63,947 nt of DNA from a virus. A model generated the notes under the pieces. The model saw only the letters and a program-made list of their open reading frames with translations, was not told the DNA's origin and ran no database searches. The position numbers and the translations under genes were made by a program. Where the stretch lies: positions 1-63,947 of IMG/VR virus record IMGVR_UViG_3300022602_000092; one strand, written 5' to 3'. Below, piece after piece: positions 4,996 through 63,947 of the stretch (its first letter is position 1; each line of letters begins with the position of its first letter).

Positions 4996-4999
4996 ATTG

Positions 5000-5006
5000 T
5001 ATTTAG
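5000..5006 (-). promoter_or_regulatory. Late-type promoter CTAAATA, 4 bases from start codon
   Basis: On the minus strand CTAAATA-CAAT-ATG. Only 4 bases separate the element from the ATG at 4995, so any transcript from it would be essentially leaderless. Confidence 0.5.
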
Positions 5007-5046
5007 TAGATTTCAACGAAGTAATATTAGATACATATTATAACAC

Positions 5047-5053
5047 ATAAATA
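5047..5053 (+). promoter_or_regulatory. Late-type promoter ATAAATA, 7 bases from start codon
   Basis: ATAAATA-CTCTAAC-ATG. No Shine-Dalgarno sequence lies between the element and the ATG at 5061, implying a leaderless or near-leaderless transcript. Confidence 0.6.
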
Positions 5054-5060
5054 CTCTAAC

Positions 5061-5705: not shown

Positions 5706-5867
5706 TTAACGTTTTTCTCGTTTCTCTTTAACATCGTCAGCGTCAGCACTTTGTACAACAGGTGCAGGTTCAATATACTTGTCCCATATTATATTCCCAC
5801 TGTTCCACCCAAATACTGTAAAGAATCCCACTATTACTGAGCCAACAGTTAATTCTAGTATGCCCAT
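5706..5867 (-). CDS. 53-residue membrane protein
   Basis: A short gene filling the space between two larger ones. Its ATG at 5867 overlaps the TAA of the sugar dehydrogenase (TAATG), and its TAA begins one base after the opposite-strand stop at 5705. The product has one hydrophobic segment (about 3-20), then 'NSGNIIWDKYIEP' and a highly charged tail ending 'KEKREKR'. The perfect tiling with its neighbours supports it as a real gene. Likely a small inner-membrane protein; function unknown. Confidence 0.6.
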   Translation of the reverse strand: MGILELTVGSVIVGFFTVFGWNSGNIIWDKYIEPAPVVQSADADDVKEKREKR

Positions 5868-6658
5868 TATAGTTTCCTCAACTTGTTATTTGTTTGTATA
5901 GCAGTTGACAACATGTTCATTTCAATGTCTGATTCATTGGCCATGTTGAGCAGTGCTGACGTATCCTTGGGGAAACATGCCCCACCAAATCCCCGTTTCC
6001 CGTCTGAGCCCGGGACTCGCCAATGGGTATATCCCAGTCGTTCATCACTTTCGGCAATACCTGCAACTGTTTCCCAATTGATGTTTAGTCGTTCACAAAG
6101 AGCCGCATATTCGTTGTTCATAACCACCTTCATGGCCAACATGGTATTGGCCACATACTTAAACATAGCGGCTTCGGCTACGCTACAATATTGCACATGG
6201 TCAGGCTCAAAGTAGGTATAGGGCACAATGTACTTTGCGGCTTCTTCCCAAAGTTTGGGCTTACTGCCGATAATAATGTTTATAGGATTGATGTAATCAA
6301 AGTTGGCCTTGGCAGCAGTTAAAAACTCTGGGGCATGTATCAGTTTTAGTCCCAGTTCATTTTCCAATCTTCTGTATGTAATGGGAGGTGCAGTACTTTT
6401 ACAAATAACAATACCTTCATAGCCCAGTAACTGTTCTAGCACAGTTTCCAGTATTGTGGTATCACATTCGCCATGTTCACTTTGTGGAGTTGGGACACAT
6501 ACAAAGATGGCTTCGCATTTGGCTTTTATTTTATCTATGGATTTTGATATTTCTGGGTATGCAGGATCGTGTATTTTGACTTTGATTTTGTCATATCCTG
6601 CAAAACTGTTTGCCACTGCCTTGCCCACAAAGCCATAGCCTATAATGCCTATCTTCAT
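5867..6658 (-). CDS. UDP-glucose/GDP-mannose 6-dehydrogenase-like enzyme
   Basis: 263 residues. The N-terminal Rossmann motif 'GIIGYGFVGKAVA' binds NAD, 'FVCVPTP' is typical of the family, 'CKSTAPP' follows, and 'GFGGACFPKD' carries the catalytic Cys at about 228. Family members oxidise the C6 hydroxyl of a UDP- or GDP-sugar twice to give a uronic acid donor. Cellular enzymes are about 390-450 residues; this one ends soon after the central domain and lacks the C-terminal UDP-binding domain, as in short phage versions. A CAGGAG ribosome site precedes the ATG. It fits the glycan-related genes in the window. Sugar specificity is unknown. Confidence 0.85.
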   Translation of the reverse strand: MKIGIIGYGFVGKAVANSFAGYDKIKVKIHDPAYPEISKSIDKIKAKCEAIFVCVPTPQSEHGECDTTILETVLEQLLGYEGIVICKSTAPPITYRRLENELGLKLIHAPEFLTAAKANFDYINPINIIIGSKPKLWEEAAKYIVPYTYFEPDHVQYCSVAEAAMFKYVANTMLAMKVVMNNEYAALCERLNINWETVAGIAESDERLGYTHWRVPGSDGKRGFGGACFPKDTSALLNMANESDIEMNMLSTAIQTNNKLRKL

Positions 6659-6693
6659 TGAATCTCCTGTATTATTCGACGATTATACTACAA

Positions 6694-6993
6694 TTAAGTC
6701 ATGTTTCCTAGTAGGATATGATTACTTTTTTCACCAACTCCCAGTACACATGCCATTTTATTATTATATTGAACTAGACTCCAGGTATGTGTTTTAGTGT
6801 TAACAAATAGTATATACTTGGTTTTATCATCAACCCCTGTCCAAAATGGTTGCTCATTGCTGTCAGCAGTCAAGCCCTCAATTATTGTTTTGGGATCTGC
6901 ACAAACCATTTTCTTGTTGTGGGTACTGAGTTCTTTGGCGTGTGCTACTAAGCTGGTTAGGATTAATATCGACACCACTGCTAATTGACGCAT
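6694..6993 (-). CDS. Small secreted hypothetical protein
   Basis: 99 residues with a clear signal peptide (hydrophobic 4-17, cut likely after AHA). The mature part is about 80 residues with two cysteines and 'TKYILFVNTKTHTWSLVQY', reading like a small periplasmic beta-rich domain. AAAGGA lies upstream of the start, with a late-type promoter at 7009. It belongs to a run of three secreted products (6694-9051). Function unknown. Confidence 0.6.
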   Translation of the reverse strand: MRQLAVVSILILTSLVAHAKELSTHNKKMVCADPKTIIEGLTADSNEQPFWTGVDDKTKYILFVNTKTHTWSLVQYNNKMACVLGVGEKSNHILLGNMT

Positions 6994-7008
6994 TGTGGTT
7001 CCTTTTGG

Positions 7009-7015
7009 TATTTAT
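7009..7015 (-). promoter_or_regulatory. Late-type promoter ATAAATA containing upstream stop codon
   Basis: Minus-strand ATAAATACC. The TAA (7014-7012) is also the stop codon of the gene at 7012-7263. AAAGGA follows before the ATG at 6993. Confidence 0.55.
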
Positions 7016-7263
7016 TTGCTACTTACTTGGGTCGCAGTTTTTTCGCAAATATCTTCGTTCTTTATCATTATAGCACCGCCACAACGGTATTCGCAAATTT
7101 TTAAACCACGATTGGTGATTTGCGTGTCAATTAAATTGCAGGTTTGAGTAAATGCCGCAATGGGTGTGGGGTTGATATTGATAGTGACGTTTTTTGGAAC
7201 AAAAGGAGTAACTAGTGCCGCAGCCGTTGTTACTCCCACCAATAATTTACTTGGTTGCTTCAT
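7012..7263 (-). CDS. Small secreted cysteine-containing protein
   Basis: 83 residues with an N-terminal hydrophobic signal (about 7-22) and four or more cysteines in the mature part ('QTCNLIDTQ', 'LKICEYRCGGA', 'NEDICEK'), consistent with disulfides in the periplasm. The ATG directly abuts the stop of the barrel-like protein gene (7264), so the two are probably co-translated. No family recognised. It may be a partner or chaperone of the outer-membrane-like protein, from context only. Confidence 0.55.
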   Translation of the reverse strand: MKQPSKLLVGVTTAAALVTPFVPKNVTININPTPIAAFTQTCNLIDTQITNRGLKICEYRCGGAIMIKNEDICEKTATQVSSK

Positions 7264-9051
7264 TTAAAAATTCAATCTAAACTCCGCTTGTGCAAAGTTA
7301 CTGTGTTGCCACTGCGAGTCAACCTTTTGCGCTTGACCAATTGCTTTAATTAAGATGCTACTGTTGGTAGTTGTCTTGTAACTTAGGCCAGCACTGGCAC
7401 GAACAAAGTCATTGCTATCCTTACTAATCTCTTCATTGATGGACCAATTCTTAGAGATAGGAGTATTGATTGCAACACCACCTTCACCCACATAAGCAAC
7501 ATTGCGGTTAGATGCAAAACTAGCGGCACCTAGTGCACTACCAGTCTCATTAACGGCACCTGTGTTGGTATAAGTTGCACGATCACCAACAAATACACGA
7601 ACTCCATAATAGTCTGGAGTATAAATTCTAACGCCAAACCATTCTTCAGTACCTTTGTATGTGCCCGAGTTGATTAGATTCAATTGATTTAGTGAGTGAG
7701 TTGCATTGTAATTGTTTACGCTTGCACCATAATCAAATTTAAATAACCAATTGTCTACTGACTTGACTGCATAAATGTCAATCATGTCTTTGGTAAAGTT
7801 ACCGCTGGCGCTGTTATCACTTAACGCCATATTACTGTCTGCATGATTGTATTGCCAACCCAATAGGAATGTAGATGATTCCAAACGTTCCATACCAACA
7901 CCCTGAATGTGTGCGGTAGTATGGTAACCATTTGTACCAGTTGCCATCATCATATCATTCAAATACATGTCAGTATCTGACCCGTTACGCATTGTGATTT
8001 TGCCATTGTTGATGGCAGTACGTGCTAGAGGATCACTGTTTAATGCATGATTGATATCATCGCTTTGTTGACGCATTTGTGCATACATATCAATTCTAGT
8101 AGAATACAATTGATCAGTGGTCGCACTTGAAACCAATTCAGTTTGTGTTACTGTTGTAGCCACTTGATTTGCGGTTGTAGTCGTAACTGTTGATGCACCT
8201 ACAGAAGTTGTAGTGGAATTATCACTGTATGTTGTGACTGTAGTAGGGGTTGATGTAACAGTTGTTGTAATTGGTGTTGTTGCCGTTACAGTAGTTGTCA
8301 CAGGAACCACAGTAGTTACTACTGTATTTTTATCAATATTAATTGTGGTTTTGGCCTGTTGTTTGCTATAAGCTACTACAGCACTAACCGCAGGAGCACC
8401 ATCGACTACGGTGGTTGCGGTAGTTGTTGCACCGTTTGCAACTGATGTAGTAGTTGCAGTAGTGGTAGTTGTCCCTGTTACTGTAGGAGCAGGAGGAGTG
8501 CTTGGTGCACTGGAGTTTGCCTGTGCCGCAGTTTGACCAGCAGCCAATGGCAGGGTAGTTGCCGGAACATAATTGGCCAGTTGTGTGTTTGTGGGATTTT
8601 GTATTACATTGGTAAATGATGCACTACCACCTAGACTGTAACCCTGTCCTGTGGTAAACAATGTACCCCACATACCAGCACCGTTATAAAATATAGCGCC
8701 ATTTGCCAGTGCCGAAAAACTACCAGTATTGTCAATGACACGCACTTGTGTACCGTTATTATACACTGCTAGTCCATATGTGCCGGGATTGGTTGTACTA
8801 TTAAAAAACTGCAAGTAATCACCAGCAGATACATAAGCAGCAACTTGTGCAGAAGTTAATCTAGCATTAGTGGGTTGACTTGCGTATAGATAGTTAAATC
8901 CGGATACATTTAATGTACTACCGGAAATATACCATTGTACGTCAAATACTTGGTTAAAACTGAATTCTTCAGTTGTAATTTGGGATTGTGCCGAAATCGC
9001 GGCGATCAACAACGAAAAGGCCACAATGGCCTTCGAAAACATTTTACGCAT
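7264..9051 (-). CDS. Secreted outer-membrane beta-barrel-like protein with Thr-rich linker
   Basis: 595 residues. There is a signal peptide (MRKMFSKAIVAFSLLIAAISA, shown here only to the predicted cut), an N-terminal globular part to about 165, a low-complexity Thr/Val/Ala-rich stretch (about 170-310), and a C-terminal half of alternating hydrophobic/polar strands ending in '...AEFRLNF'. A C-terminal Phe preceded by alternating hydrophobic residues is the signature recognised by the outer-membrane barrel assembly machinery. The layout resembles an autotransporter or OmpA-type adhesin. An AAGGAGC ribosome site precedes the start. A phage-made barrel could alter receptors and block superinfection, or it may be host-derived. 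No specific family is recognised. Confidence 0.65.
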   Translation of the reverse strand: MRKMFSKAIVAFSLLIAAISAQSQITTEEFSFNQVFDVQWYISGSTLNVSGFNYLYASQPTNARLTSAQVAAYVSAGDYLQFFNSTTNPGTYGLAVYNNGTQVRVIDNTGSFSALANGAIFYNGAGMWGTLFTTGQGYSLGGSASFTNVIQNPTNTQLANYVPATTLPLAAGQTAAQANSSAPSTPPAPTVTGTTTTTATTTSVANGATTTATTVVDGAPAVSAVVAYSKQQAKTTINIDKNTVVTTVVPVTTTVTATTPITTTVTSTPTTVTTYSDNSTTTSVGASTVTTTTANQVATTVTQTELVSSATTDQLYSTRIDMYAQMRQQSDDINHALNSDPLARTAINNGKITMRNGSDTDMYLNDMMMATGTNGYHTTAHIQGVGMERLESSTFLLGWQYNHADSNMALSDNSASGNFTKDMIDIYAVKSVDNWLFKFDYGASVNNYNATHSLNQLNLINSGTYKGTEEWFGVRIYTPDYYGVRVFVGDRATYTNTGAVNETGSALGAASFASNRNVAYVGEGGVAINTPISKNWSINEEISKDSNDFVRASAGLSYKTTTNSSILIKAIGQAQKVDSQWQHSNFAQAEFRLNF

Positions 9052-9137: not shown

Positions 9138-9746
9138 TTATTCTACCAATACCCAAGGATCGTTAATTACTGGAGTACCATCTTTGCGTACCATAATGTT
9201 ACCGGAATGCAAGTCCCAAGCATATTTGCTTTTTTGACCTTTTCGATAAAGTTTATCCAAAGTCCATTTCAATAACTCCATGCGTTCTGGAGTTTTAACT
9301 GCTGCAAGAATAATCTTTTCTTCAGCTTTAGTAACCTTGCCTTTCCAACTTGGGAATTCAGTATGAGTACCCAATTCAGATACTGCCTTTTGTAACTTAA
9401 GATTAGTGAATAGTTGCTCGGTACGTATTTGCAAATACATATCGCCTTTGAATTTGAAACTTTCATATCCATAAAAGCGTGGTAGGAAAGGATTGTCCTG
9501 ATGCTTCATACAGAACTTGGCCCACTTAAAAAACATTTTTTGATCTCGAGTAAAATTCTTGCTACCTTCTTGTGTGCCAAATATCTTTAATACATAGCCA
9601 GTGCCGGGCTCCAAGTAAGCCTCTTGATCAACACCGGCGCCAAGAAATTGGTAACCTTTTTTCTTTAGGGTAATTTTTATCCGGTGATCTATGTCACTGT
9701 ACTCGTCCAGTACCTCTGATTCTGCAATAATTTCTGAAATTTTCAT
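9138..9746 (-). CDS. Kinase-fold (APH/ABC1-like) protein with capsid-targeting-like N-terminus
   Basis: 202 residues from the ATG at 9746; an upstream in-frame ATG at 9788 overlaps the promoter and previous gene and is less likely. The kinase-like features are 'YVLKIFG' (candidate ATP-binding Lys), 'DLHSGNIMV' (like the catalytic loop H-x-G-N/D-x-x-x-x-N of aminoglycoside and choline kinases) and 'VINDPWVL' (like the metal-binding D of that fold). The substrate could be a small molecule or a protein. The N-terminus 'MKISEIIAE' followed by S matches the T4 internal-protein signature with an I-x-E cleavage site, so the enzyme may be packaged and injected. Kinase fold moderately sure; packaging inferred. 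Confidence 0.65.
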   Translation of the reverse strand: MKISEIIAESEVLDEYSDIDHRIKITLKKKGYQFLGAGVDQEAYLEPGTGYVLKIFGTQEGSKNFTRDQKMFFKWAKFCMKHQDNPFLPRFYGYESFKFKGDMYLQIRTEQLFTNLKLQKAVSELGTHTEFPSWKGKVTKAEEKIILAAVKTPERMELLKWTLDKLYRKGQKSKYAWDLHSGNIMVRKDGTPVINDPWVLVE

Positions 9747-9750
9747 TATG

Positions 9751-9757
9751 TATTTAT
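9751..9757 (-). promoter_or_regulatory. Late-type promoter ATAAATA containing upstream stop codon
   Basis: Minus-strand ATAAATA-CATA-ATG. Its TAA (9756-9754) ends the 60-residue gene upstream, and the next start codon is 4 bases downstream. Confidence 0.55.
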
Positions 9758-9936
9758 TTGTCTTCAGGAATCCAACGAAACCAATCACATCGTTGTAGCA
9801 ACATCATCATGTCACTAGCCGGAACACCGGTTTGGTTTGCGGCAAACTCTACAAAGTAACTCCAGTCGACACCAACGTTGTCTCGCCCGTTGCACCACTG
9901 TTGGTACATATTGTGTAGCATACGTTCATTTATCAT
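9754..9936 (-). CDS. 60-residue hypothetical protein
   Basis: A small soluble protein rich in Trp, Met and Asp ('QQWCNGRDNVGVDW', 'MMMLLQRCDWFRW'). AAGGAG sits about 8 bases before the ATG, inside the end of the preceding 47-residue gene, so translation is coupled. Part of a three-gene run from the promoter at 10077. Function unknown. Confidence 0.6.
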   Translation of the reverse strand: MINERMLHNMYQQWCNGRDNVGVDWSYFVEFAANQTGVPASDMMMLLQRCDWFRWIPEDK

Positions 9937-11132: not shown

Positions 11133-12041
11133 TTATTTGTTCAAAAACTGTTTTACTTTGATTCTGTAGTTATCATAGTAGTTATTGATTGCTTTGGTGT
11201 CATTGGTTGCATCTGGTAGTAGATATAAATTTTTAATACCTTCTGCAACCACTGGATCTCGTACCGCATCCCACAGTATTTTTTTAAGTCTTTCTGCACG
11301 TTCTGGACGCATTTGCGGTTGTAGATCTAAACTTAAAAAGCCAGTGAATTGACTAATACCCAATTGTCGATTGGCCGAGGGAATAAAAATATCATCCACT
11401 GTGATGTCATTTTTATAAGTGTTGCCAATGATGTGTATCTTACCGGTCTTGACCATTTGTATTAGATTTGAGTTGAGTGCAACAACTGCTAGGGGCAAGG
11501 TGCCATTTAACAAGTCTACTATAATCTCGTTTGTACCTTTGTAGGGCACTATGGTAATGGGTTTTAAGTTCTTTTCCTTGACCAAGGCCAATGCGTTATA
11601 GTTATAACTATGACTATAACCACCTATTAGGTCCGGTAGATTTGACAACATATCACGTGGAGTACGAATCTTGCTGTCTGCTCTAACGATCCACAAGCCC
11701 ACGCTGGTGCCAATGTATATTGCATGATCAAAATCTGCATCCGTATACTGTAGATTATCTTTTAACAAAGGATTGAAAATTGTTTGACTCCCAGATCCCA
11801 TGATGACATCTATGCTTTTATTGTTTTTAAAATGAGTGGCACCCACTGCTGTTTCAGCACCGGGCATGTTTTCAATTATAATATGATCCTGTGTATTGCG
11901 CTCAACACTGGCCTGCAACATACGTGCCACAGAATCTGTTTGATTGCCAGCGGGAAACGGTACTATCATTTTGTACTCTTCGGCATGGGCCAAAGATATC
12001 AATAAACCTATTCCAAATAGTAAGCGGGTGATATACTGCAT
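11133..12041 (-). CDS. TctC/Bug-type periplasmic solute receptor 1
   Basis: 302 residues. A signal peptide ends at SLAHA20. 'EYKMIVPFPAGNQTDSVARML' opens the mature protein, the classic start of tripartite tricarboxylate transporter receptors ('I-V-P-F-P-A-G/P-G...'), followed by 'IIENMPGAETAVGA'. The length and later blocks ('IVPYKGTNEIIVDLLNGTL', 'RLKKILWDAV') fit this family (PF03401), which binds citrate-like acids, amino acids or nicotinate derivatives in the periplasm. Bug proteins are greatly expanded in betaproteobacteria. It overlaps the 3' end of PP-loop gene 1 by 34 bases, so it is part of a phage operon and not stray host DNA. A phage-borne receptor without the TctA/TctB channel is odd. 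Confidence 0.85.
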   Translation of the reverse strand: MQYITRLLFGIGLLISLAHAEEYKMIVPFPAGNQTDSVARMLQASVERNTQDHIIIENMPGAETAVGATHFKNNKSIDVIMGSGSQTIFNPLLKDNLQYTDADFDHAIYIGTSVGLWIVRADSKIRTPRDMLSNLPDLIGGYSHSYNYNALALVKEKNLKPITIVPYKGTNEIIVDLLNGTLPLAVVALNSNLIQMVKTGKIHIIGNTYKNDITVDDIFIPSANRQLGISQFTGFLSLDLQPQMRPERAERLKKILWDAVRDPVVAEGIKNLYLLPDATNDTKAINNYYDNYRIKVKQFLNK

Positions 12042-13165
12042 TTTAATCCTTTTTCTATATCAGTGGGGTCGTTGAGCCAATAGGGATCCAGTTGTGCTAG
12101 ATGCCCTTTTAGCATTGTTAGTTGTGTTTGGTACCAACTGTCCTTGTTCCATACTATATCTCTATAACTTGATACAACACTTATGGGTTTACCAGCACTA
12201 AAGGTCTTGGCACTGAATTTGGGGTATATCAGTGTATTGATTAAATTACGATAACTTAATCCATCTTCAGTGTGTTTATTTGCAAAAATCTGCTCAATGT
12301 CCGGTAAGTCTATTAGTGTGTCACTGTAGTATTTGTCTTGTTTATAAATTTTGTGCTTTTCAAAAAAACGTTTTAGTATGTGTGCTTGTTTGCAGACTAT
12401 GTCCGCAGTCTCCGGAGCCCAATAAAACAATTCATCATACTCATAATCTCTGTTTACAATCTGCGTTCTACTGCTGAGACCTGCATCAATTACATCCAAA
12501 AACTTTATGCAATAGCGATTGTTTTCTTGATATAATCGAGGTTTATCACAACCCCAAACAAACACAACCTTTTTACCCTGTTCAATTAGTTTTTGATAGT
12601 CGGGAGTTGTTTCACGAATATAACTTTTACTCAAATGGCTTGTGCCCCAGTGTGCGCTGGCATAATAAGCACGATTGGTTCGATAATGATCGTTGCTTAA
12701 TATTTTACTGGCAACATCACTTAGGTCAATAACTCTATGCTTGAACTTTACGCCCTGTGCCGCCAATAGTTTTAATCTAGGGTAACTTACATTTACTTGT
12801 TCACTGTTAAAGAAGTTAGTGGGATCACTGTCCGCGGACAAATAGTTAAATGTAGCAACTTCATCTATGGCAACGTCATTGTCCACAAATGTGTCCAATA
12901 TGTTACTGCTGTCTGCGCCACCACTGTAAAACAACACCACGTAGTCATAGTCTGCACGTATTTGTCGTGCACGACGAGCATACAACTCCTCCAATGACTC
13001 AGTGGGTTCTATTTGCCAATTGTAAGCGTTAAAATACAACTCATTAAAATCCCAATGCGGATGTATGCCCGTGCGTTTGTGTAGTTCTATAGCCTCAACT
13101 TTGCTATAGGTTCTAAAATCACCCACACGGTAATAACCAAATTTGTCTTTGTTATTGCCCAGCAT
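12008..13165 (-). CDS. PP-loop ATPase family protein (paralog 1)
   Basis: 385 residues. The pyrophosphatase (PP) loop is S81-G-G-A-D-S86 after the strand 'YDYVVLFY'. The family activates a carbonyl or nucleobase by adenylation (asparagine synthetase, QueC, tRNA lysidine or thiolation enzymes). The N-terminal 80 residues form a shared module: 'GYYRVGDFRTYSKVEAI' and 'ESLEELYARRARQIR'. Further shared motifs are 'WGCDKP' and 'ELFYWAPETADIVCKQA'. Three relatives lie at 15185, 46924 and 63042. It starts within the stop of the oxygenase-like gene and overlaps TctC-1 downstream. The ATPase fold is sure; the substrate is unknown, and the set of motifs does not match any named PP-loop enzyme that I know. 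Confidence 0.75.
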   Translation of the reverse strand: MLGNNKDKFGYYRVGDFRTYSKVEAIELHKRTGIHPHWDFNELYFNAYNWQIEPTESLEELYARRARQIRADYDYVVLFYSGGADSSNILDTFVDNDVAIDEVATFNYLSADSDPTNFFNSEQVNVSYPRLKLLAAQGVKFKHRVIDLSDVASKILSNDHYRTNRAYYASAHWGTSHLSKSYIRETTPDYQKLIEQGKKVVFVWGCDKPRLYQENNRYCIKFLDVIDAGLSSRTQIVNRDYEYDELFYWAPETADIVCKQAHILKRFFEKHKIYKQDKYYSDTLIDLPDIEQIFANKHTEDGLSYRNLINTLIYPKFSAKTFSAGKPISVVSSYRDIVWNKDSWYQTQLTMLKGHLAQLDPYWLNDPTDIEKGLKCSISPAYYLE

Positions 13166-13767
13166 TATGCATCAAGGAAACTTGTGTCCCCAATTCCGGC
13201 AACTGTTTCCACAGCCAGTCTATTCAACAAACTAATATGCAGTGAAATTCTAGTTCTGTGCAAATTCTCAACACTATGCAAAACAGTGGTGTCTATTAGA
13301 GTCCACTTACCTCGGGGCAACCTTATTTTGTCAATGAATTCAAGTTGTGTTAAATCCTCGCCCTGTGTCTTGGGTGGACGATGTAGGGGCTTGCCCTTTT
13401 CCTGCCAGTAATATAACTCGGCGTTGTCCCCGCCCAACTCCACATCCCATAGCATAACATAGTTGCGTACACCATCTGTATGTGCTCCTGTGCTACGTGC
13501 GATGTCAGTGGGTTCAATACTCACATAGTTGACCCCGGCATCAACGATATGTTTGGTCACATTCTCTTTGACCCATTTCTCAAATTCAGGATATGCTTGT
13601 CTTGTGTTTACACCTGCGGGCAAGTTGTATCCATTCCAATTCTTTAGTGTGCGAGTATGAAAGTAACCGATCTCGCTCATGTTGGGGCGCTTGTTTCTGT
13701 CAATGCCGTCAATGATCCATTGCGGTGGTGTGGGCACGTTGTCTAGTGCTCGAAATAAAAATGTCAT
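13165..13767 (-). CDS. 2-oxoglutarate/Fe(II)-oxygenase-like protein
   Basis: 200 residues. A double-stranded beta-helix fold is suggested by the metal triad H96-T-D98 ('GAHTDGVRNY') and H164 ('TTVLHSVENLH'), followed by R173 in 'RTRISLHISL', the usual carboxylate-binding position for 2-oxoglutarate. 'GKWTLIDT' before H164 fits the strand leading into the distal His. Such enzymes hydroxylate small molecules, amino acids or proteins. The neighbours are a class IV aminotransferase upstream and a PP-loop ATPase downstream with overlapping codons, suggesting one pathway. No close named family is recognised. Confidence 0.65.
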   Translation of the reverse strand: MTFLFRALDNVPTPPQWIIDGIDRNKRPNMSEIGYFHTRTLKNWNGYNLPAGVNTRQAYPEFEKWVKENVTKHIVDAGVNYVSIEPTDIARSTGAHTDGVRNYVMLWDVELGGDNAELYYWQEKGKPLHRPPKTQGEDLTQLEFIDKIRLPRGKWTLIDTTVLHSVENLHRTRISLHISLLNRLAVETVAGIGDTSFLDA

Positions 13768-13773
13768 ATGAAT

Positions 13774-14616
13774 TTATCCCTTGGTATGTATTTTGTTTTT
13801 CATTAGCAAGTACAACAATCTCATTCGTACTTTGGATGCAGGCAGATATCGACCATTAAAATTGTACACTGGAGTTAGTGTACCAGCAGTGCTGGTGGTA
13901 AACATATCATCACAGTCTAATAACATTGGTTCATCAATGTCAGTAAATTCAAATGGGATACCATCAGTGTCACACAAATTTTTAATTAGTTGCATAGAGA
14001 CACCGGGTAAACAATTTGTTGCCGGAGCCAGAACTTTGCCATCTTTTATTATAGCAACATTAAATCCCGGACCCTCGGTCAAATAACCATCTTGACTTAA
14101 TAAGATTGCTGAATCAAATCCATGATCAATTGCTTCCCACTGCGCCATAGTTAAATCTTGCCAAGCAAAATTCTTATATTTTTGATTTACTATATCATCT
14201 GGAATTCTTCGTTGCTGGGCCAACCACAGTGCCATATTATTACTACCATTCCATCTGTACTCACGGGCATAGCACATCAAATTGGGCACACAACTTTCTA
14301 AATTTCTATCCCCCACCAAAGAGACTCCCCGGGTCACTGTTAGCCAAATTAAACTATGTGCCCACCCGGATCTAGCATGACATTCAGTTACGATATCTGT
14401 TAATTCCTTTGGTGTATATAATAAATCAAATCTTGAATACTCGCAACTGGCAACAAATCTATCTATATGATTTGAGATATTGCGGCCATTGTTGTTGATA
14501 AATGCCATTACATCATAAGTGGCATCGCTGTGAGTAAATCCAAGATCCAATACGCTTATTTTTAGATCTCGGACCTTACACCATCGTCCATTGTACCAGG
14601 CTACGTTATCTTGCAT
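13774..14616 (-). CDS. Class IV PLP aminotransferase (branched-chain / D-amino-acid / ADC-lyase type)
   Basis: 280 residues, the usual length. 'MAFINNNGRNISNHIDRF' resembles the N-terminal 'r..fr..ehl.RL' block. K148 in 'NQKYKNFAW' is the likely PLP lysine. 'DSAILLSQDGYLTEGPGFNVAII' matches the family's 'G-x-h-x-E-x-x-x-x-N-h-F' block with E181 (quoted here in two parts of one motif). 'STAGTLTPV' near 240 fits the phosphate-binding 'T-[SG]-x-x-G-h-x-P' loop. These enzymes move an amino group between an amino acid and a 2-oxo acid, or release pyruvate from aminodeoxychorismate. It overlaps the exonuclease gene by 11 bases. The exact substrate cannot be read from sequence. Confidence 0.85.
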   Translation of the reverse strand: MQDNVAWYNGRWCKVRDLKISVLDLGFTHSDATYDVMAFINNNGRNISNHIDRFVASCEYSRFDLLYTPKELTDIVTECHARSGWAHSLIWLTVTRGVSLVGDRNLESCVPNLMCYAREYRWNGSNNMALWLAQQRRIPDDIVNQKYKNFAWQDLTMAQWEAIDHGFDSAILLSQDGYLTEGPGFNVAIIKDGKVLAPATNCLPGVSMQLIKNLCDTDGIPFEFTDIDEPMLLDCDDMFTTSTAGTLTPVYNFNGRYLPASKVRMRLLYLLMKNKIHTKG

Positions 14617-15148
14617 TTTTTGGGTTAGGGATTTTCAATGCCCTGAAAGTTTCTTGAATTGCTTGTGCTTGACTCACACAATCTGCCAGTGCATTGTGCA
14701 AATCTTCTTTGTTCTTTTCTCTGGGATCGCCATGTACTTTCAACAATGTACGACTATCACGTATTTGCCAGTAGTACCAAGGCGCTGGACGTCCATACAT
14801 ACGATACATATTTTCCAAGCATCCAATATCAAATACTGATCCCTGTGCCCATATGTTTGTGACTCCTACCACAAACTTATTTAACTGTGTCAACATGTCT
14901 TCAACAGGAATCCTACCATCAGTGCCCAGGGCTTCTTCTCGTACATCTGGATGTTGTCGTCCCCACCACTCAACAGTGTCTTCCTCAACATAACGACCCT
15001 TTTCAATTTGTCCATCTACATCAGGTCTGATATACAGGGTGTCACCAAAACTGTCCGGTGTATAGGGGTCAAATTTGACTGCACCCAATGTCAGTATTAC
15101 TGCATCGGGTCTTGTACTCAGCGATTCTAAATCCAGCATTATATCCAT
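14606..15148 (-). CDS. DEDD-family 3'-5' exonuclease (Rv2179c/DexA-like)
   Basis: 180 residues. 'MLDLESL' supplies the D-x-E pair (D6, E8), 'GSVFDIGCLENMY' the second Asp, and 'HNALADCVSQA' the final H...D of the DEDDh type. 'TRPDAVILTLGAVKFDP' is typical of the Rv2179c-like/DexA group found in T4-like phages, which trims 3' ends of RNA or single-stranded DNA. It lies inside the metabolic operon between the aminotransferase and PP-loop paralog 2, which seems accidental. Confidence 0.85.
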   Translation of the reverse strand: MDIMLDLESLSTRPDAVILTLGAVKFDPYTPDSFGDTLYIRPDVDGQIEKGRYVEEDTVEWWGRQHPDVREEALGTDGRIPVEDMLTQLNKFVVGVTNIWAQGSVFDIGCLENMYRMYGRPAPWYYWQIRDSRTLLKVHGDPREKNKEDLHNALADCVSQAQAIQETFRALKIPNPKNAR

Positions 15149-15184
15149 AATAGTATTATAGTAGATTATTCAATTAATAGCAAA

Positions 15185-16318
15185 TTATTCGACTAGATAA
15201 TATTGGCTGGGTATAAAAGTAAGCCCACCAATTTTACCCAGTCTCTTGTCGAGAAAACTGGATGTTTTCTCAGTGATGTATTGTTTTAGTGCCCAATTCC
15301 AAGACTCAACAAAACGTGGGTTATACTGTTGTATCCATGATTCATTTTCTGTTATGATGGTTCCGGCCTGCTTTTGTACTTGGAACGTGCCTAAATCATA
15401 ATCAGGATAGCAGGCCATTTGATACAACATCCTAAATTTATTATATTTTTCTATATGACTCACATTGCTCAAGCCGGGGTTATCCCAAACTTCTAGATCC
15501 GGACGTAGTTTGACCAAATCCTTGATGCAGTGTGCTTGTAGTATGGGGATGGTGGGAAAGTCTCGACTCCAATAAAATAATTCCACTTGCTTGTGCTCGG
15601 GCATACTGTCCAAATTAAACATATCCCTGAAACAAGCATTGAATTTGGATTTACCCGTAACAGCGTCTGTGGTTTTGTAACAATTGATTTTTTCAATTCC
15701 AATTACGTGTGCTACAGTTTCGCCACGACTTTCAGCAAGAGTTTCATTGTCTGATTGCTTGGCAAATTTAAACATGGTTGACATGTGTTGATATTTGTTC
15801 ATTTTGGCAATGTCTTTTTCCGACAATGCATCTATGTTAAATGAATCAGAATAATCCAAAATAGATATATTTGTTTTTGGATGTGTCTTTTTGATGTCTT
15901 CTAGTACTGGCAATACTGCATATTCAAACTCACTGGTCAAGTTGTCTGCATTTAGATTTAGGGGATCTGCTGGTCTATACTTGCGCTCGGCAAAGGGCCA
16001 ACGTGTTCTAACCTCGTCAAGATGTATACCATTGGCAAGGAAACTGTGTAACACAGTCCAAGAATCCATACCACCACTGAAGTGCACCACAACATAATCG
16101 TAGTTGTCCCTAATCTGTTGTGCACGATCTCGGTACAAATCACGTAACGTGCCACTGGGTCTGATGGTCCAGTCAATCTTGGCAAATACATCATCATGAA
16201 AGTGCCAAGTTATGGGCTGATGTCTTGTTTGGGCATTGTAGATTGCCTCAAGTTTGTTTAGATAAACGTCAGCACCCACTTGATAATAACCATATGGGTA
16301 ATTAATGTGCTGGATCAT
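15185..16318 (-). CDS. PP-loop ATPase family protein (paralog 2)
   Basis: 377 residues, with PP-loop S81-G-G-M-D-S86 after 'YDYVVVHF' at the same position as paralog 1. The N-terminal module is conserved ('GYYQVGADVYLNKLEAI'). The later motifs are diverged: 'VIGIEKINCY' replaces W-G-C-D-K-P, and 'ELFYWSRDFPTIPILQA' replaces F-Y-W-x-P-E...K-Q-A. It is the most divergent of the four and may act on a different substrate. Its first 17 bases overlap the end of TctC-like gene 2, mirroring the overlap between paralog 1 and TctC-1. Confidence 0.75.
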   Translation of the reverse strand: MIQHINYPYGYYQVGADVYLNKLEAIYNAQTRHQPITWHFHDDVFAKIDWTIRPSGTLRDLYRDRAQQIRDNYDYVVVHFSGGMDSWTVLHSFLANGIHLDEVRTRWPFAERKYRPADPLNLNADNLTSEFEYAVLPVLEDIKKTHPKTNISILDYSDSFNIDALSEKDIAKMNKYQHMSTMFKFAKQSDNETLAESRGETVAHVIGIEKINCYKTTDAVTGKSKFNACFRDMFNLDSMPEHKQVELFYWSRDFPTIPILQAHCIKDLVKLRPDLEVWDNPGLSNVSHIEKYNKFRMLYQMACYPDYDLGTFQVQKQAGTIITENESWIQQYNPRFVESWNWALKQYITEKTSSFLDKRLGKIGGLTFIPSQYYLVE

Positions 16319-17201
16319 TCTTTATTAGATTTTTCCATTTGGCATGATCTTTGTTAAAAAATTCCACAGTCTCGTTTAGATTTAAATTTGCCGGAATACT
16401 GTAATCATATCCATACAGCACATAATTGAACTTGTTTGCCTCAAAAAATATATCATGCAATTCTTTGATCACCTCGGGTGCAGTATCGGCTCGCACCAAC
16501 ATCATGTAATCTGATGTCAAATGCTCAAATCCCCGTATGTGCTGGCTGGCAAATGTGGGGAATAATTTGTTATTTGCCACACCAGTCGATCCAATGGCAT
16601 TGAGATTGTGCCCCTCTATCCACGGCACTGCGCTAGAAGGTACATCAATATTTAGATCAAGTACTCCGCCCAATACATCTTTAGTGGGCGCACTTGTACT
16701 ATTGTAGCCCACTATAATTATTTCTGTGTTGGGCAATAACTTTTGTAATTGGCGAGCAACTACTTCTGTTTGATGTCCCAATATTGCGCCCACAGTCAAA
16801 GACTTTTGTTGTTTTAATTCATCAAAGGATTTATATTTTTTACTGACCACGATGTAGGGCAAGTCTTGGCATTCTATTAGCACAGGAGCAAAGTCAGATA
16901 CATTGTAACTTTCATTTGGATAGTACAAGGGCCTTATAAAGAAACTGCTGGGAGTGCTGAGAACGACTGCACCAGGTCGAGCAGACAGTGTATGCCCAAC
17001 TGCCACTTGCCCGCCACCACCAACACGACTTTCGAATGTAAAAACATATTTGGACTGTTGTGCGTTGCTTTGGGCAATTATAGTTCTAATATAGTTTGCT
17101 TGATTTGAGCCGGGATTGAGCGGCCAAACAATAGAAACCGGTATTGGTGCGGCCAATGACATATTCATTACGAACAATATCAACAGCCATGCACGATGCA
17201 T
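16302..17201 (-). CDS. TctC/Bug-type periplasmic solute receptor 2
   Basis: 299 residues from the ATG at 17201, one base after the stop of the cytidylyltransferase. A longer in-frame start at 17327 lies inside that gene and is rejected. The signal peptide is 'MHRAWLLILFVMNMSLAA'. The mature N-terminus 'PVSIVWPLNPGSNQANYIR' parallels the family's 'I-x-x-V-V-P-x-x-P-G' opening, and the Gly-rich stretch 'VGGGGQVAVGH' corresponds to the ligand loop. Later 'IIVGYNSTSAPTKDVLGG' parallels 'PYKG...DLLGG'. It is strongly diverged from TctC-1, so the two are probably not a recent duplication. It is paired by overlap with PP-loop paralog 2. Confidence 0.75.
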   Translation of the reverse strand: MHRAWLLILFVMNMSLAAPIPVSIVWPLNPGSNQANYIRTIIAQSNAQQSKYVFTFESRVGGGGQVAVGHTLSARPGAVVLSTPSSFFIRPLYYPNESYNVSDFAPVLIECQDLPYIVVSKKYKSFDELKQQKSLTVGAILGHQTEVVARQLQKLLPNTEIIIVGYNSTSAPTKDVLGGVLDLNIDVPSSAVPWIEGHNLNAIGSTGVANNKLFPTFASQHIRGFEHLTSDYMMLVRADTAPEVIKELHDIFFEANKFNYVLYGYDYSIPANLNLNETVEFFNKDHAKWKNLIKNDPAH

Positions 17202-17202
17202 T

Positions 17203-17682
17203 TTATTTTTTGCCTGATAAGAGTTTTTGACTTTCTGCAGCCACAACACGTTGACGCAAACTGCTACTGGAGAAAGAATGATCTCTACTATTGAATACAT
17301 TTTCGATCTGCATTGCGGCGCCTTCATTGCGTCCAGTAAAGTTTGTGTCTTCGTACTCGCTACCTAATATACGTACATCAATTGGTAGTGTTAGTAATAT
17401 ATCTATTAGGTCTTGTTCTGTGGTGTAGACAATAATTTCATCTACATAACGGCATGCGCCCAATTGTATTTGTCGTTCCACAATGCTTTGCACCGGGGGA
17501 TTTTTAGTATCCGGGCGGTCAATACTTGCGTCAGTTTGTAAACCTGCAATTAAGTAATCGCAGTGATTTTTTGCTTCGGCTAGCATGGCAATGTGTCCGG
17601 CATGTAGCATGTCAAATTGCGAGAAGGTGATGCCAATGCGTTTACCTTGGGCTTTGAGTTCTTTGATTCTATTGAATATCAT
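17203..17682 (-). CDS. Cytidylyltransferase-like nucleotidyltransferase
   Basis: 159 residues. 'GITFSQFDMLHAGHIAML' contains the H-x-G-H signature of the cytidylyltransferase family (glycerol-3-phosphate, heptose or ethanolamine type), and 'SSSSLRQRV' near the end resembles the I-S-S-T-x-x-R motif. The enzyme would join CTP or ATP to a phosphorylated alcohol or sugar. 'IVYTTEQDLIDILLTL' and 'RILGSEYED' fit the Rossmann fold. It overlaps ClpS by 4 bases upstream and is one base from TctC-2. It might activate a sugar or polyol phosphate for a glycan. Confidence 0.8.
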   Translation of the reverse strand: MIFNRIKELKAQGKRIGITFSQFDMLHAGHIAMLAEAKNHCDYLIAGLQTDASIDRPDTKNPPVQSIVERQIQLGACRYVDEIIVYTTEQDLIDILLTLPIDVRILGSEYEDTNFTGRNEGAAMQIENVFNSRDHSFSSSSLRQRVVAAESQKLLSGKK

Positions 17683-17999
17683 ATGTCTTGTTCTATTTTA
17701 ACTTGTAATGGAAATCCATGTTGACGAGCCAGTAGCGTAACTTCAATGCCCTTTTGTTCAGCCATCTCGTAGGGCAAATTGGCAACTACTGCGCTTTCTT
17801 CATCATGCACCTTCATGGTCAATGCTTCTGCACTGTCTCGGTTGTAGCCAAAAATTTCTGTTAGTGTTTCCACAACAAATTCAAAAGTTGTTACTTCATC
17901 ATTGACGTAGATAACATTAAAGTTCTTGGGTTCCTTGTACTCCTCTTTGGGAGCAATCTTGGGTCTAATTTCTGTTAGGGTTTTTGTATCTGTAGTCAT
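17679..17999 (-). CDS. clpS: ClpS-like adaptor for the ClpAP protease
   Basis: 106 residues, close to bacterial ClpS. After a flexible N-terminus comes 'FNVIYVNDEVTTFEFVVETL', with the N-D-[ED]-x-T binding motif, then a conserved His in 'KVHDEESAVV' and 'LPYEMAEQKG'. ClpS binds proteins with hydrophobic N-terminal residues and hands them to ClpA. A phage copy could redirect host N-end-rule proteolysis; ClpS has been reported in other large phage genomes. The gene lies just after the Hsp20 terminator and upstream of the cytidylyltransferase. Confidence 0.9.
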   Translation of the reverse strand: MTTDTKTLTEIRPKIAPKEEYKEPKNFNVIYVNDEVTTFEFVVETLTEIFGYNRDSAEALTMKVHDEESAVVANLPYEMAEQKGIEVTLLARQHGFPLQVKIEQDI

Positions 18000-18009
18000 A
18001 ATATGAATA

Positions 18010-18031
18010 AAGGGGTAGTTGTATACCCCTT
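18010..18031 (-). terminator. Hairpin terminator after hsp20
   Basis: Perfect 8-bp stem AAGGGGTA / TACCCCTT with a 6-base loop, followed on the minus strand by TATT. It lies between the Hsp20 stop (18050) and the ClpS start (17999). Confidence 0.7.
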
Positions 18032-18049
18032 ATTTTACGCGAAATTTAA

Positions 18050-18508
18050 TTATTTCGCAAATGAAATGGCAATCTTTTTAGGCTTTTGTTCTTCAGGGAT
18101 TACCTGTTCTAGAGCAATTGCCAAAATACCATTCTTTACGTTGGCACCTCGAACTTCAATGTGTTCGGCCAAAGGGAAAGTACGTGTGAAATCTCGGTTA
18201 CTGATACCTTTGTGTAGGTATTCTAATTCGGATTCATCTGTACGGTTACGCTCACCTTTTACAGTTAGCACGTTTTCCTTTAGTTCCACATCGATTTCAT
18301 CCTCTGCAAATCCGGCTACTGCCAGTTCAATTGCATAGTGTGTGTCATCTAATTTGACCACATTGTGTGGAGGATAATTACCATCCGCTTTGCTATTGGC
18401 AAATGTGCGATTTAGTTGATCAAACATGTGATCAAAGCCAATACTGTGGCGGTGCAACTGAGTTGCTAATTGTGGTAAATCGAGAGTGTGAATTGAAAAT
18501 TGTGTCAT
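18050..18508 (-). CDS. Small heat-shock protein (Hsp20/IbpA-like)
   Basis: 152 residues with an alpha-crystallin domain: 'PPHNVVKLDDTHYAIELAVAG' opens it, 'LTVKGER' and 'GISNRDFTRTFPL' follow, and 'GANVKNGILAI' leads to the conserved end. 'IGFDHMFDQLNR' near the N-terminus resembles the IbpA/B start. It keeps unfolded proteins soluble, and T4-like cyanophages also encode one. A TAGGAGA ribosome site precedes the start. The leader (about 65 bases from a late-type promoter at 18575) holds a hairpin at 18546-18570. Confidence 0.92.
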   Translation of the reverse strand: MTQFSIHTLDLPQLATQLHRHSIGFDHMFDQLNRTFANSKADGNYPPHNVVKLDDTHYAIELAVAGFAEDEIDVELKENVLTVKGERNRTDESELEYLHKGISNRDFTRTFPLAEHIEVRGANVKNGILAIALEQVIPEEQKPKKIAISFAK

Positions 18509-46923: not shown

Positions 46924-48081
46924 TTAACAGATTATTGCAGGTGTGTCTACTTTTCCGATACAATATTTTTGAGTGAATTGTCGTATTCCGTCCGGAACAC
47001 CATTTCGATAAACCACATATTCTGGTATTTGCTCAGCAAGATATGTCAAGCCACGTTCCCAATTTTGTATGGCTCCAGCAAAAGCAGGATCAGAAAACAA
47101 CCACATGTCAAACTCACTGTGCCACCAAGTTTTGCTCTTGTCTGCTTGAAACCAACTTTGGTCCCACGTTGAGTACACAATAGTTCTTAGTAGTTTTTCA
47201 TGTATCAATCTAGTTCGGGCAAAGTCTGCATCGGTCCATAAATTTTGATATTGGGGATTGGCTTCTAACCATCGTTTGATGGTGTGCCCTTGTTTGCACA
47301 CAATGTCTGCGGTATCCGGACTCCAATAAAACAATTCAGTTTTTACGTTGGTGTAATCTTTGTTGTATTTGTCACTGGTTATATTCGTTGCAGTATCATT
47401 AAAGTAAACATAGAAATCACCATTGTGAATCTTAGTGACTGGTTTGTCACATCCATGTAACATTGCTATGGTGCGGTTTTTGTCAAACTGTCGTTTAACA
47501 TCACCATAATAAAAATAATTATACCTTAGCGGCATTCCTGGGCTTAGATGATCATGCTTGTGTAATACCCAATCCTCATCTCGATATCCGCTAATAGTGT
47601 CTACAATTAAATCACTTACATCGATAGCAGTTATCTTTGTTCGTGGAAGTTTATCACTTAGTTCTCGTAATCTGGGCACTGCTTGTAATTGATACTCGGC
47701 ATTTAAATTCCAACTTGCAGTCACTGATGGATTAAGTACATTTTTGTTTTGTGTTGCTTTTTCTGTATGATTGATCAGTATTTCATCTATGTGCAAATTC
47801 TGTCGAGTAAATGCACACAACATATTATAACTATCTGCGCCACCACTGAAGTTGATTATTATATAATCGTATCGCTCTCGCAACTGGCGGGCACGTCGAT
47901 CATATAGGTCATCTAGTGTTTCTGTGGGTTCTATGTGCCATGGGTACTTGGCGAACACATCTTGATGAAATACCCATTTAATGGATTTCTTGTTTGCAGA
48001 TGAGTATAGGCATGCGTCCACTTTGGAGGCGAAGTCTACACCATTGCATCGGTAATAACCGACATCGGGATCTATAAGCAT
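46924..48081 (-). CDS. PP-loop ATPase family protein (paralog 3)
   Basis: 385 residues. PP-loop S79-G-G-A-D-S84 after 'YDYIIINF'. The N-terminal module 'GYYRCNGVDFASKVDA', 'ETLDDLYDRRARQLR' and later 'LHGCDKPVTKI' and 'ELFYWSPDTADIVCKQGH' align with paralogs 1 and 4. No TctC or metabolic gene is adjacent here: it lies between the primase and the lectin-like genes. No ribosome site is clear. Confidence 0.75.
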   Translation of the reverse strand: MLIDPDVGYYRCNGVDFASKVDACLYSSANKKSIKWVFHQDVFAKYPWHIEPTETLDDLYDRRARQLRERYDYIIINFSGGADSYNMLCAFTRQNLHIDEILINHTEKATQNKNVLNPSVTASWNLNAEYQLQAVPRLRELSDKLPRTKITAIDVSDLIVDTISGYRDEDWVLHKHDHLSPGMPLRYNYFYYGDVKRQFDKNRTIAMLHGCDKPVTKIHNGDFYVYFNDTATNITSDKYNKDYTNVKTELFYWSPDTADIVCKQGHTIKRWLEANPQYQNLWTDADFARTRLIHEKLLRTIVYSTWDQSWFQADKSKTWWHSEFDMWLFSDPAFAGAIQNWERGLTYLAEQIPEYVVYRNGVPDGIRQFTQKYCIGKVDTPAIIC

Positions 48082-63041: not shown

Positions 63042-63947
63042 ATGGATATGAACCAGGACAGATTGGGTTATTACCTAGTCGGTGATAAGAAATTCTATAG
63101 TAAGACATTGGCGCTTTTAGAAAGTTACAGTCAGCGACCATCAAATTTGACTTGGGTATTTAACGATTCCGTCTATTCCTCTATAGATTGGCAAACGCCA
63201 ATTTATGAATCACTCCCCGAATTATATTTACGTCGAGCGTTGCAATTACGAAACCAATACGACTATTTAGTATTGTACTATAGTGGTGGAGCAGACAGCG
63301 GAAACATTCTCAAAACCTTTATCAATAACAACATATTTTTGGATGAAATAGTAATGCAGTTGCCCGAGTCGGCACGTAAGAATTTCAATGATCGGGACAA
63401 ATCCAACGGAAACATTTACAGCGAATTGGAATTTTCCGCAAAGCCTGTTCTGGAGAAGTATAGGAACAAATTGCACCCAAACACACTGATTAGATATCAA
63501 GACATTTCAAAACCAATATTTGATCTATTTGAAAAAGATAATTGGTTTGAAACCAACCCCATGGGCACCAATATATCCATAGCAGGTATTGCTAGACAAG
63601 CGGCACAAGTGGCGGAAACACATATATTGGATCTATGTTATAAAGGTTTGAAAACTGCTCAAATTGTGGGAGTGGATAAACCGTTGGTTCATTTTGATGG
63701 CCGAAACTATTATGCATATTTCCTTGATGTTAATGCAATGCATAGCCCACCAGTGGATCTAACTAAAAATGAAATCTTTTATAATTTATATCAAACAGAA
63801 TTTTTTTATTGGACTCCTGATATGCCCGAGATAGTGGTCAAACAGGCCCAAGAAATCAAAAAAGTCTGTGAGGTAAGTGAATATCATAGAAATATGATGT
63901 TGAAATCTTTTGTAAAACATATATCAGAGTTTCGACCAGTATTGCAT
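63042..63947 (+). CDS. PP-loop ATPase family protein (paralog 4), 3'-truncated
   Basis: The frame stays open to the window end: 302 codons visible. PP-loop S81-G-G-A-D-S86 after 'YDYLVLYY'. The module 'GYYLVGDKKFYSKTLAL', 'ESLPELYLRRALQLR', 'IVGVDKPLVHFDG' and 'FFYWTPDMPEIVVKQAQ' match paralogs 1 and 3 at equal positions. It is divergent from the HARP-like gene. The missing C-terminus should be about 80 residues by comparison. Confidence 0.75.
   Translation, partial: MDMNQDRLGYYLVGDKKFYSKTLALLESYSQRPSNLTWVFNDSVYSSIDWQTPIYESLPELYLRRALQLRNQYDYLVLYYSGGADSGNILKTFINNNIFLDEIVMQLPESARKNFNDRDKSNGNIYSELEFSAKPVLEKYRNKLHPNTLIRYQDISKPIFDLFEKDNWFETNPMGTNISIAGIARQAAQVAETHILDLCYKGLKTAQIVGVDKPLVHFDGRNYYAYFLDVNAMHSPPVDLTKNEIFYNLYQTEFFYWTPDMPEIVVKQAQEIKKVCEVSEYHRNMMLKSFVKHISEFRPVLH

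Follow-up and report, generated by a model that had tools for sequence, protein, structure and literature searches.

The window, i.e., the whole 63,947-nucleotide stretch of virus DNA analysed here, encodes at positions 11133-17682 a cluster of eight genes, all on the minus strand (Table 1). We reconfirmed the open reading frames, strand and order given in the initial annotation, as well as its two overlaps, of 17 bases between TctC-2 and PP-2 and of 34 bases between PP-1 and TctC-1. One start was moved: the longest reading frame of TctC-2 begins at 17327, within the nucleotidyltransferase gene, but a start at 17201 is more likely, because a signal peptide follows it directly and the upstream stop lies 1 base before it. 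The spacing of the genes suggests that they are co-transcribed. The two TctC/PP-loop pairs are separated by the exonuclease, the aminotransferase and the 2OG-oxygenase-type protein, and are arranged in opposite orders (TctC-2 before PP-2, PP-1 before TctC-1). They are not copies of one cassette, since their order is opposite and their identities are low (28% between PP-1 and PP-2, 18% between TctC-1 and TctC-2); the two TctC also fall in different subclades, and we ruled out a tandem duplication. PP-3 and PP-4, two of the window's four PP-loop genes, lie outside the cluster and have no TctC neighbour.

Table 1. Genes of the cluster and further PP-loop genes of the window.
Feature	Position	Strand	Description	Basis
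TctC-1	11133..12041	-	secreted TctC/Bug-type acid receptor	ORF, Pfam TctC 36.3 bits
PP-1	12008..13165	-	PP-loop protein, N-type ATP-pyrophosphatase-like, motif FYSGGADS	alignment, AlphaFold, Foldseek
2OG/Fe(II)-oxygenase-type protein	13165..13767	-		alignment, model, Foldseek
Class IV aminotransferase	13774..14616	-	branched-chain / D-amino-acid type	Pfam E 4.9e-36
DEDD 3'-5' exonuclease	14606..15148	-	Rv2179c / phage exonuclease type	Pfam, PHROG
PP-2	15185..16318	-	second PP-loop protein, motif HFSGGMDS	ORF, alignment
TctC-2	16302..17201	-	secreted TctC-type acid receptor	Pfam TctC 27.7 bits
Nucleotidyltransferase	17203..17682	-	RfaE/HldE type	Pfam, NCBIfam, PHROG
PP-3	46924..48081	-	solitary PP-loop paralog, same family	HMM E 1.6e-111
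PP-4	63042..63947	+	PP-loop paralog, cut by contig end	HMM E 2.8e-85

The TctC of the window are divergent. Both pass the curated cut-off of the Pfam profile (PF03401, 27 bits), TctC-2 just barely. Each has a hydrophobic N-terminus with an A-X-A-like end (...AHA before EEYK in TctC-1), i.e., a secretion signal as called by a heuristic rather than by SignalP, and 91 of 97 phage TctC have a strongly hydrophobic N-terminus. TctC-1 groups with the TctC of L005 and L028, and its ligand-loop motif has ET in place of GG. We disregarded an apparent excess of variation in ligand loop 1 of the phage proteins, as the same motif (FAPGGAAD) had served to select the bacterial set; loop 2 showed no excess beyond the protein-wide difference.

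The PP-loop and 2OG-type proteins of the window matched no Pfam profile and were identified by motif conservation and predicted fold. Searches of Pfam, NCBIfam and PHROG provided no name for the PP-loop proteins: none of 16 members matched the Pfam profiles of the LarE, NAD synthetase, AsnB or QueC subfamilies at E 1, and TIGR00268 (LarE) was matched by PP-2 only (E 0.07). The AlphaFold (AF2) model of PP-1 (pLDDT 85.5) has a HUP-type fold with a PP-loop. Foldseek matched it in the PDB to LarE, NAD synthetase and carbapenam synthetase (E 4e-4, TM 0.26), with a probability of 1.00 but a TM of just 0.22-0.27 for the first two and low TM to N-type ATP-pyrophosphatases overall (0.22-0.32), and in BFVD to unnamed phage proteins (E 1.7e-35). 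The ATP-site motif is intact; 121 of 127 distinct PP-loop proteins carry the SGGxDS-type motif, which is also conserved in the family alignment. The closest relative of PP-1 is the protein of L003 (70% identity), and PP-2 is at most 33% identical to any relative in the PP-loop tree. By analogy with the PP-loop superfamily, these enzymes may adenylate a carboxylate; PP-loop enzymes also use tRNA bases, carbonyls and sulfate donors as substrates.

This unnamed family occupies more than 500 IMG/VR loci and was seen only in phages among the data searched here. The tblastn search of INPHARED with two PP-loop proteins gave no match, and the TctC and DctP matches there came from Salmonella draft contigs and from short records lacking annotation. 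Two peptide patterns, used to search genome contigs, retrieved no PP-loop relatives.

The pairing of TctC with PP-loop genes recurs well beyond this window. We found 47 distinct adjacent pairs in IMG/VR, of which 28 had the PP-loop gene first, 13 had TctC first, six were divergent and none was convergent. The same-strand gaps were mostly of -4 (the mode) or other overlaps. Among non-redundant loci selected by TctC, a PP-loop gene was directly adjacent in 17 of 30, and among those selected by the PP-loop gene, TctC was adjacent in 18 of 54. When gene order was shuffled within the same loci, the means were 5.3 and 3.1, respectively, and none of 2000 permutations was as high in either case. Across 43 large phage records, 21 of 55 TctC matches lay within 500 bases of a PP-loop match (0.93 expected, at most six in 5000 trials), and pairs were also found outside any selected locus (L320, L321). 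The percentages of the reverse scans are biased because these scans were seeded with PP-associated TctC and DctP sequences. Chance pairing, which the initial annotation would have accepted had the two genes never been adjacent in related phages, is thus rejected by the permutation and genome-wide proximity tests.

The partners are also often exchanged. The partnership changes 25 times on the PP-loop tree, at least 14 of these changes being forced by supported branches, which indicates that re-pairing recurs. The distances of paired PP-loop and TctC proteins correlate (Mantel r 0.30, p 2e-4, 42 pairs), a correlation confounded by phage phylogeny. Around half of the phage TctC have neighbours other than PP-loop genes, and many PP-loop genes lack TctC. 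Phage TctC form one deep group separate from the sampled bacterial TctC, and those adjacent to PP-loop genes have a best identity of 0-41% (median 29%) to a bacterial set that had been retrieved for its resemblance to a single phage TctC. Hence, within this sample, they are an old phage lineage and not the recent single host acquisitions that had been raised as an objection. The results support a real, recurrent and phage-specific association, whose conserved unit is an acid receptor with an ATP-dependent enzyme.

The other genes do not belong to this unit in any consistent manner, and the initial reading of all eight as one pathway was not supported: the sets of neighbours vary. The aminotransferase, whose ilvE-like NCBIfam matches are below the cut-offs, was found in none of 15 related records. 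The 2OG-type protein is predicted to be a 2OG/Fe(II) oxygenase with a double-stranded beta-helix (model pLDDT 91.8; Foldseek matches to PHD2, YcfD, FIH and JMJD5, E about 1e-4 to 1e-3), an HxD...H...R facial triad and a 2OG-binding Arg (H96, D98, H164 and R173 are invariant in an alignment of 18 sequences). Its gene lies beside a PP-loop gene in five of 54 non-redundant loci. The exonuclease (Pfam Rv2179c-like, E 1.5e-35; phrog_255, E 2.5e-44) and the nucleotidyltransferase (Pfam E 4.6e-10; TIGR02199, E 2.3e-20, below cut-off; phrog_7878, E 2.7e-30), nearest in type to RfaE/HldE, are parts of a syntenic block also found without TctC. The former occurs without TctC in L006 and L012 and is probably outside the module. 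The latter is syntenic with ClpS/Hsp20-like genes, often with PP-loop genes nearby. Sulfur-related readings, drawn from DUF2061, TauD and APS kinase genes in relatives, were set aside, these genes not being beside the window's pairs.

Some relatives encode part of a transporter. TctA (PF01970, E 6e-34 to 1e-65) lies beside the PP-loop gene and/or TctC in L003, L156, L159 and L165, is also found in L160, and occurs in 11 loci of about seven distinct lineages. The gene order is 2OG, PP-loop, TctA, TctC in L003 and PP-loop, DctP, TctA, TctC, on one strand, in L156. The window, which is a fragment, has no TctA HMM match and no DctP; no TctB was seen in the relatives, and thus no complete tripartite tricarboxylate transporter (TctA and TctB with TctC). 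The initial annotation had the acid either imported or sensed, and TctA in the same operons of several relatives favours the first part of this proposal.

These receptor/PP-loop gene pairs suggest that large environmental phages take up an acid from their surroundings and activate it chemically for their own use. We see about even chances that the window is one example of such a recurrent phage module, in which a small organic acid is captured and activated. TctC, once secreted to the periplasm, would bind the acid, which would be imported by a TctA(B)-type importer, phage-encoded in some relatives and presumably host-encoded here. The PP-loop enzyme, whose translation is probably coupled to that of TctC, would adenylate the acid in the cytosol, using ATP to give AMP-carboxylate and pyrophosphate; the activated acid could then enter an amide, thio or other bond. 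In some relatives, a second, signal-less receptor of the DctP type probably serves to keep the acid bound within the cytosol. Receptors and enzymes appear to be mixed and matched among phages, and the ligands therefore probably differ between pairs; the window's two pairs probably handle two different acids. A more tentative extension, possible though somewhat doubtful, is a phage-specific system of periplasmic TctC, optional TctA, signal-less cytosolic DctP and interchangeable PP-loop enzymes that makes phage-specific metabolites from environmental acids. Receptor and enzyme would then be exchanged as matched pairs, and each large phage might therefore carry several substrate-specific pairs.

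The DctP proteins bear on a different reading, in which TctC in the periplasm and DctP in the cytosol would not serve import but sequester or sense a host signal or defence metabolite, which the PP-loop enzyme would in turn modify or inactivate. The signal peptide is absent from 63 of 65 phage DctP, most of those inspected have a ribosome-binding site immediately upstream of the mature start, and the carboxylate-binding Arg position is kept in 61 of 65, along with other near-invariant residues. They look like cytosolic ligand binders, because they lack the signal and yet keep the Arg position. The adjacency of DctP to PP-loop genes is weak in the PP-selected set alone (four against 1.2 expected, 26 of 2000 permutations as high). 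High divergence and repeated re-pairing resemble an arms race, and most pairs have no phage TctA. Yet, TctA in the same operons implies transport, the known architecture of these transporters directly accounts for TctC with TctA, and the pairs show no defence-linked gene. We consider sequestration or sensing unlikely.

Slightly less likely still are independent nutrient genes in a hotspot of auxiliary genes, where TctC would help the host to take up more of a carbon source and the function of the PP-loop gene would be unrelated. The widely varying neighbours, the other metabolic genes crowding the same regions and the many PP-loop genes without TctC fit this possibility. It is however difficult to reconcile with direct adjacency far above that of shuffled gene order, with gaps of -4 or overlaps, with the lack of convergent pairs and with a partnership re-formed many times.

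It is improbable that the pairs serve surface or glycan modification, with TctC supplying an acid from which the PP-loop enzyme would make a sugar acid, amidated or acylated, to decorate the cell surface, virions or phage DNA. Nucleotidyltransferases of the RfaE type do occur near PP-loop genes, in some cases as fusions to mannose-phosphate-isomerase cupins, and in L160 a glycosyltransferase comes after the module, but such neighbours are inconsistent and mostly non-adjacent (the nucleotidyltransferase is adjacent in none of 54 PP-loop loci and within two genes in four).

LarE and NAD synthetase both act on pyridine-nucleotide carboxylates. A pyridine-acid route is nevertheless very improbable, in which TctC would bind quinolinate or nicotinate and the enzyme would amidate or thiolate a carboxylate of the nicotinate type, either to supply NAD or to counter a defence that depletes it. 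The best PDB folds are indeed LarE and NH3-dependent NAD synthetase, and the TctC-type Bug27 and Bug69 bind quinolinate at 70-136 nM (PMC11452294), but the fold similarity is weak and mainly in the PP-loop domain, Bug27 is a poorer match to phage TctC than are BugD and the terephthalate-binding protein, and several divergent PP-loop copies per phage speak against a single substrate.

The capture-and-activation module resembles several known systems in part. It shares with LarE, NAD synthetase and the asparagine, beta-lactam and carbapenam synthetases the SGGxDS PP-loop motif and a nucleotide-binding core; unlike these enzymes, the phage proteins have their own N- and C-terminal parts and no glutaminase domain. 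With TctABC transporters it shares the receptor and, in the five relatives above, TctA, but its operons include the PP-loop enzyme and, in some cases, the signal-less DctP. Cyanophage pstS is a phage nutrient-receptor auxiliary gene, whose product is a periplasmic receptor dependent on host membrane parts. Both cases involve a phage-encoded periplasmic receptor, but PstS is of a different family and has no paired ATP-dependent enzyme. A tctA gene, given as 'protein domain hit only', was reported in a SUP05 virus contig, and is likewise a phage-borne component of such a transporter, described there without linkage to PP-loop or TctC genes (PMC4164917).

The closest bacterial precedents are the orphan Bug receptors of Bordetella and other Proteobacteria, secreted TctC that lack their own TctAB and are encoded beside an enzyme thought to use the ligand, e.g., arylmalonate decarboxylases in AMDase clusters (PMC5812351) and nadC with Bug69/27 (PMC11452294). 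These are bacterial and involve other enzymes, whereas the receptors described here are phage-borne, form a divergent phage clade and overlap an unnamed PP-loop family. If our reading is true, large phages do not just borrow single metabolic genes but come equipped with a receptor of their own, in some cases an importer as well, and an ATP-dependent enzyme dedicated to the task. The chemistry of the enzyme family would also become approachable, because the ligand of the paired receptor, once screened, points to the substrate of the enzyme, and the signal-less DctP would clearly exemplify an import receptor that has been given a new use within the cell. Adenylating enzymes of the ANL type also lie beside phage TctC, in L309 (with a Rieske dioxygenase) and in L322.

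As described in the initial annotation, the region of eight minus-strand genes holds two secreted TctC/Bug-type acid receptors (TctC), each overlapping a gene of a phage ATP-pyrophosphatase-like family, PP-loop (gaps -17 and -34). The window also encodes proteins of phage replication: a helicase, a ribonucleotide reductase and a DnaB-type helicase. Both TctCs have an N-terminal signal peptide; for TctC-2 the likeliest start is 17201, not 17327. Pfam matched both TctCs, a class IV aminotransferase, an Rv2179c-type exonuclease, and a cytidylyltransferase-like protein whose nearest type is RfaE/HldE. The SGGxDS motif is present in both PP-loop proteins, and an HxD...H...R set in the 2OG-type protein is invariant across 18 relatives. 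AlphaFold models of a PP-loop protein (pLDDT 85.5) and of the 2OG-type protein (91.8), searched with Foldseek, were consistent with PP-loop ATP-pyrophosphatase and 2OG-oxygenase folds, with low similarity scores to solved structures. The proposal that all eight genes form one acid-modifying pathway was not borne out by conservation, since the aminotransferase was found in none of 15 related records.

Coordinates of features in the window and in other phage loci (L handles)
Record	Positions	Strand	Feature
Window	1-63,947		linear IMG/VR virus record, 63,947 bases
Window	17682-11133	minus	eight genes; successive gaps +1, -17, +36, -11, +6, -1, -34
Window	17679-18508		small ClpS-like and Hsp20-like genes
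Window	46924-48081; 63042-63947		two more members of the PP-loop family, no TctC neighbour; the second interrupted by the contig end
Window	1-690; 33764-34837; 36161-37276		three paralogs, unnamed family of ~360 aa
Window	3189-3902		D-alanyl-D-alanine carboxypeptidase (Peptidase_S11, E 9e-40), kept in L012 and L013
Window	5867-6658		UDP-glucose/GDP-mannose dehydrogenase, 263 aa, N-terminal and central domains only
Window	9138-9788		protein resembling a kinase; matches phrog_15752 (phage protein kinase) weakly
L309 (G033:270000-282000)	3606-7880		ANL enzyme, TctC, Rieske ring-hydroxylating dioxygenase alpha and beta in a row
L314	5694-11452		TctC, GAPGSKW sulfotransferase-like gene, small genes, APS-kinase-like gene

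In L006, L012 and L013 the ClpS-like and Hsp20-like genes share synteny with the exonuclease and the RfaE/HldE-like nucleotidyltransferase; the block of L013 also contains an inserted TctC. The ~360-aa family, two full-length copies of which lacked Pfam or PHROG matches, also occurs near PP-loop genes in relatives.

The TctC/PP-loop adjacency recurs in other phages, as 47 distinct pairs. Scanning IMG/VR with a PP-loop protein gave 15 loci, and an alignment-based scan at least 529, of which the best 80 were kept; reverse scans seeded with PP-associated TctC and DctP (TRAP receptor) sequences gave the best 80 loci. PP-loop genes were most often neighboured by TctC (38/95 loci). Once near-identical loci were removed, 18 of the 54 PP-selected loci had a TctC gene immediately next to PP-loop (3.1 when gene order was shuffled within loci), and PP-loop adjoined TctC in 17 of 30 loci from PP-associated TctC seeds (shuffled 5.3). 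Among 36 loci from PP-associated DctP seeds, DctP was adjoined by TctC in 14 (shuffled 3.7) and by PP-loop in 14 (5.0). When 43 large records were taken whole, 21 of 55 TctC matches lay within 500 bases of a PP match, against 0.93 expected. The pairs of L320 and L321 were outside every selected locus. The distinct pairs were ordered PP>TctC (28), TctC>PP (13) or divergent (6), never convergent, most frequently with an ATGA-type gap of -4.

In quick maximum-likelihood trees with long branches, 67 phage TctCs (of 115 TctCs) formed one supported group, separate from 38 sampled bacterial TctCs, with the window's two placed apart from each other within it. Along the PP-loop tree, a TctC partner is gained or lost ~25 times, and supported branches require at least 14 of these changes. 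Receptor and enzyme distances are correlated (Mantel r 0.30, 42 pairs, p 2e-4), to which shared phage ancestry contributes. Judging from these trees, the pairing is old and repeatedly re-formed.

TctA, the membrane subunit of the tripartite tricarboxylate importer, is the sole polytopic membrane family clearly recurring next to TctC, PP-loop or DctP genes. The order is 2OG>PP>TctA>TctC in L003 (closest relative of PP-1, 70%), PP>TctA>TctC in L159 (gaps -4 and 3), and PP>DctP>TctA>TctC in L156; DctP faces TctC-TctA in L165 and L154. Pfam's model misses the TctA-partner TctCs of L156, L159 and L160, which have diverged too far; they were called by a phage-built HMM or, in L160, by signal peptide and likeness.

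In our best reading, TctC would capture an organic acid, TctA(B), phage- or host-encoded, would import it, and the PP-loop enzyme would activate it with ATP; we infer ligand, transport, chemistry and product alike. Bacterial orphan TctC genes adjoin enzymes using their ligands (PMC5812351, PMC11452294), a precedent for the phage arrangement. The component kinds are known; their coupling is, as far as testable, new. Phage tctA has a single-domain report in a SUP05 virus (PMC4164917), repeated in a review, the only one we found, and no paper found in the open-access literature connects PP-loop enzymes with TctC or DctP of phages. Weak superfamily matches aside, the PP-loop family has no Pfam or PHROGs name; two queries matched none of 50,697 phage records, and scanning the bacterial collection gave no match at the sensitivity applied.

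Among 113 distinct phage TctCs, 56 adjoin a PP-loop gene (three divergent families), 9 a sulfotransferase-like family with APS kinase nearby, and 1 an ANL adenylating enzyme (motif-based call); TctA is a neighbour in 6 and DctP in 11. TctC thus recurs next to acid-activating or acid-modifying enzymes. In a 337 kb phage record, the ANL/TctC/Rieske set has the look of a small aromatic-acid-like cassette. It is flanked by a metallophosphatase and an SMC-type ATPase, which by our own naming resemble phage gp47 and gp46. The sulfotransferase-like arrangement of L314 is seen across L310-L315 and L318, sometimes with DUF2061, and its gene content suggests phage-encoded sulfation. Another TctC subgroup (L122-L125, L138, L141, L143) lacks PP-loop and directly follows a very long protein (up to ~1990 aa, collagen-like in L125) in a structural-gene-like context.

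Phage DctPs are strong matches to the TRAP receptor family (PF03480, E 1e-50), and 63 of 65 lack a signal peptide; most of those inspected have a ribosome-binding-like site right upstream of the mature start. The carboxylate-clamp Arg position, which we assume from SiaP as a lead, is kept in 61/65, and TYSGG, GE..xPR and H are near-invariant and phage-specific, so these proteins should still bind ligand, inside the cell. Signal-less DctP homologs are common in large phages (L148-L227; 486 matching loci), near PP-loop, TctC or DUF2061 genes.
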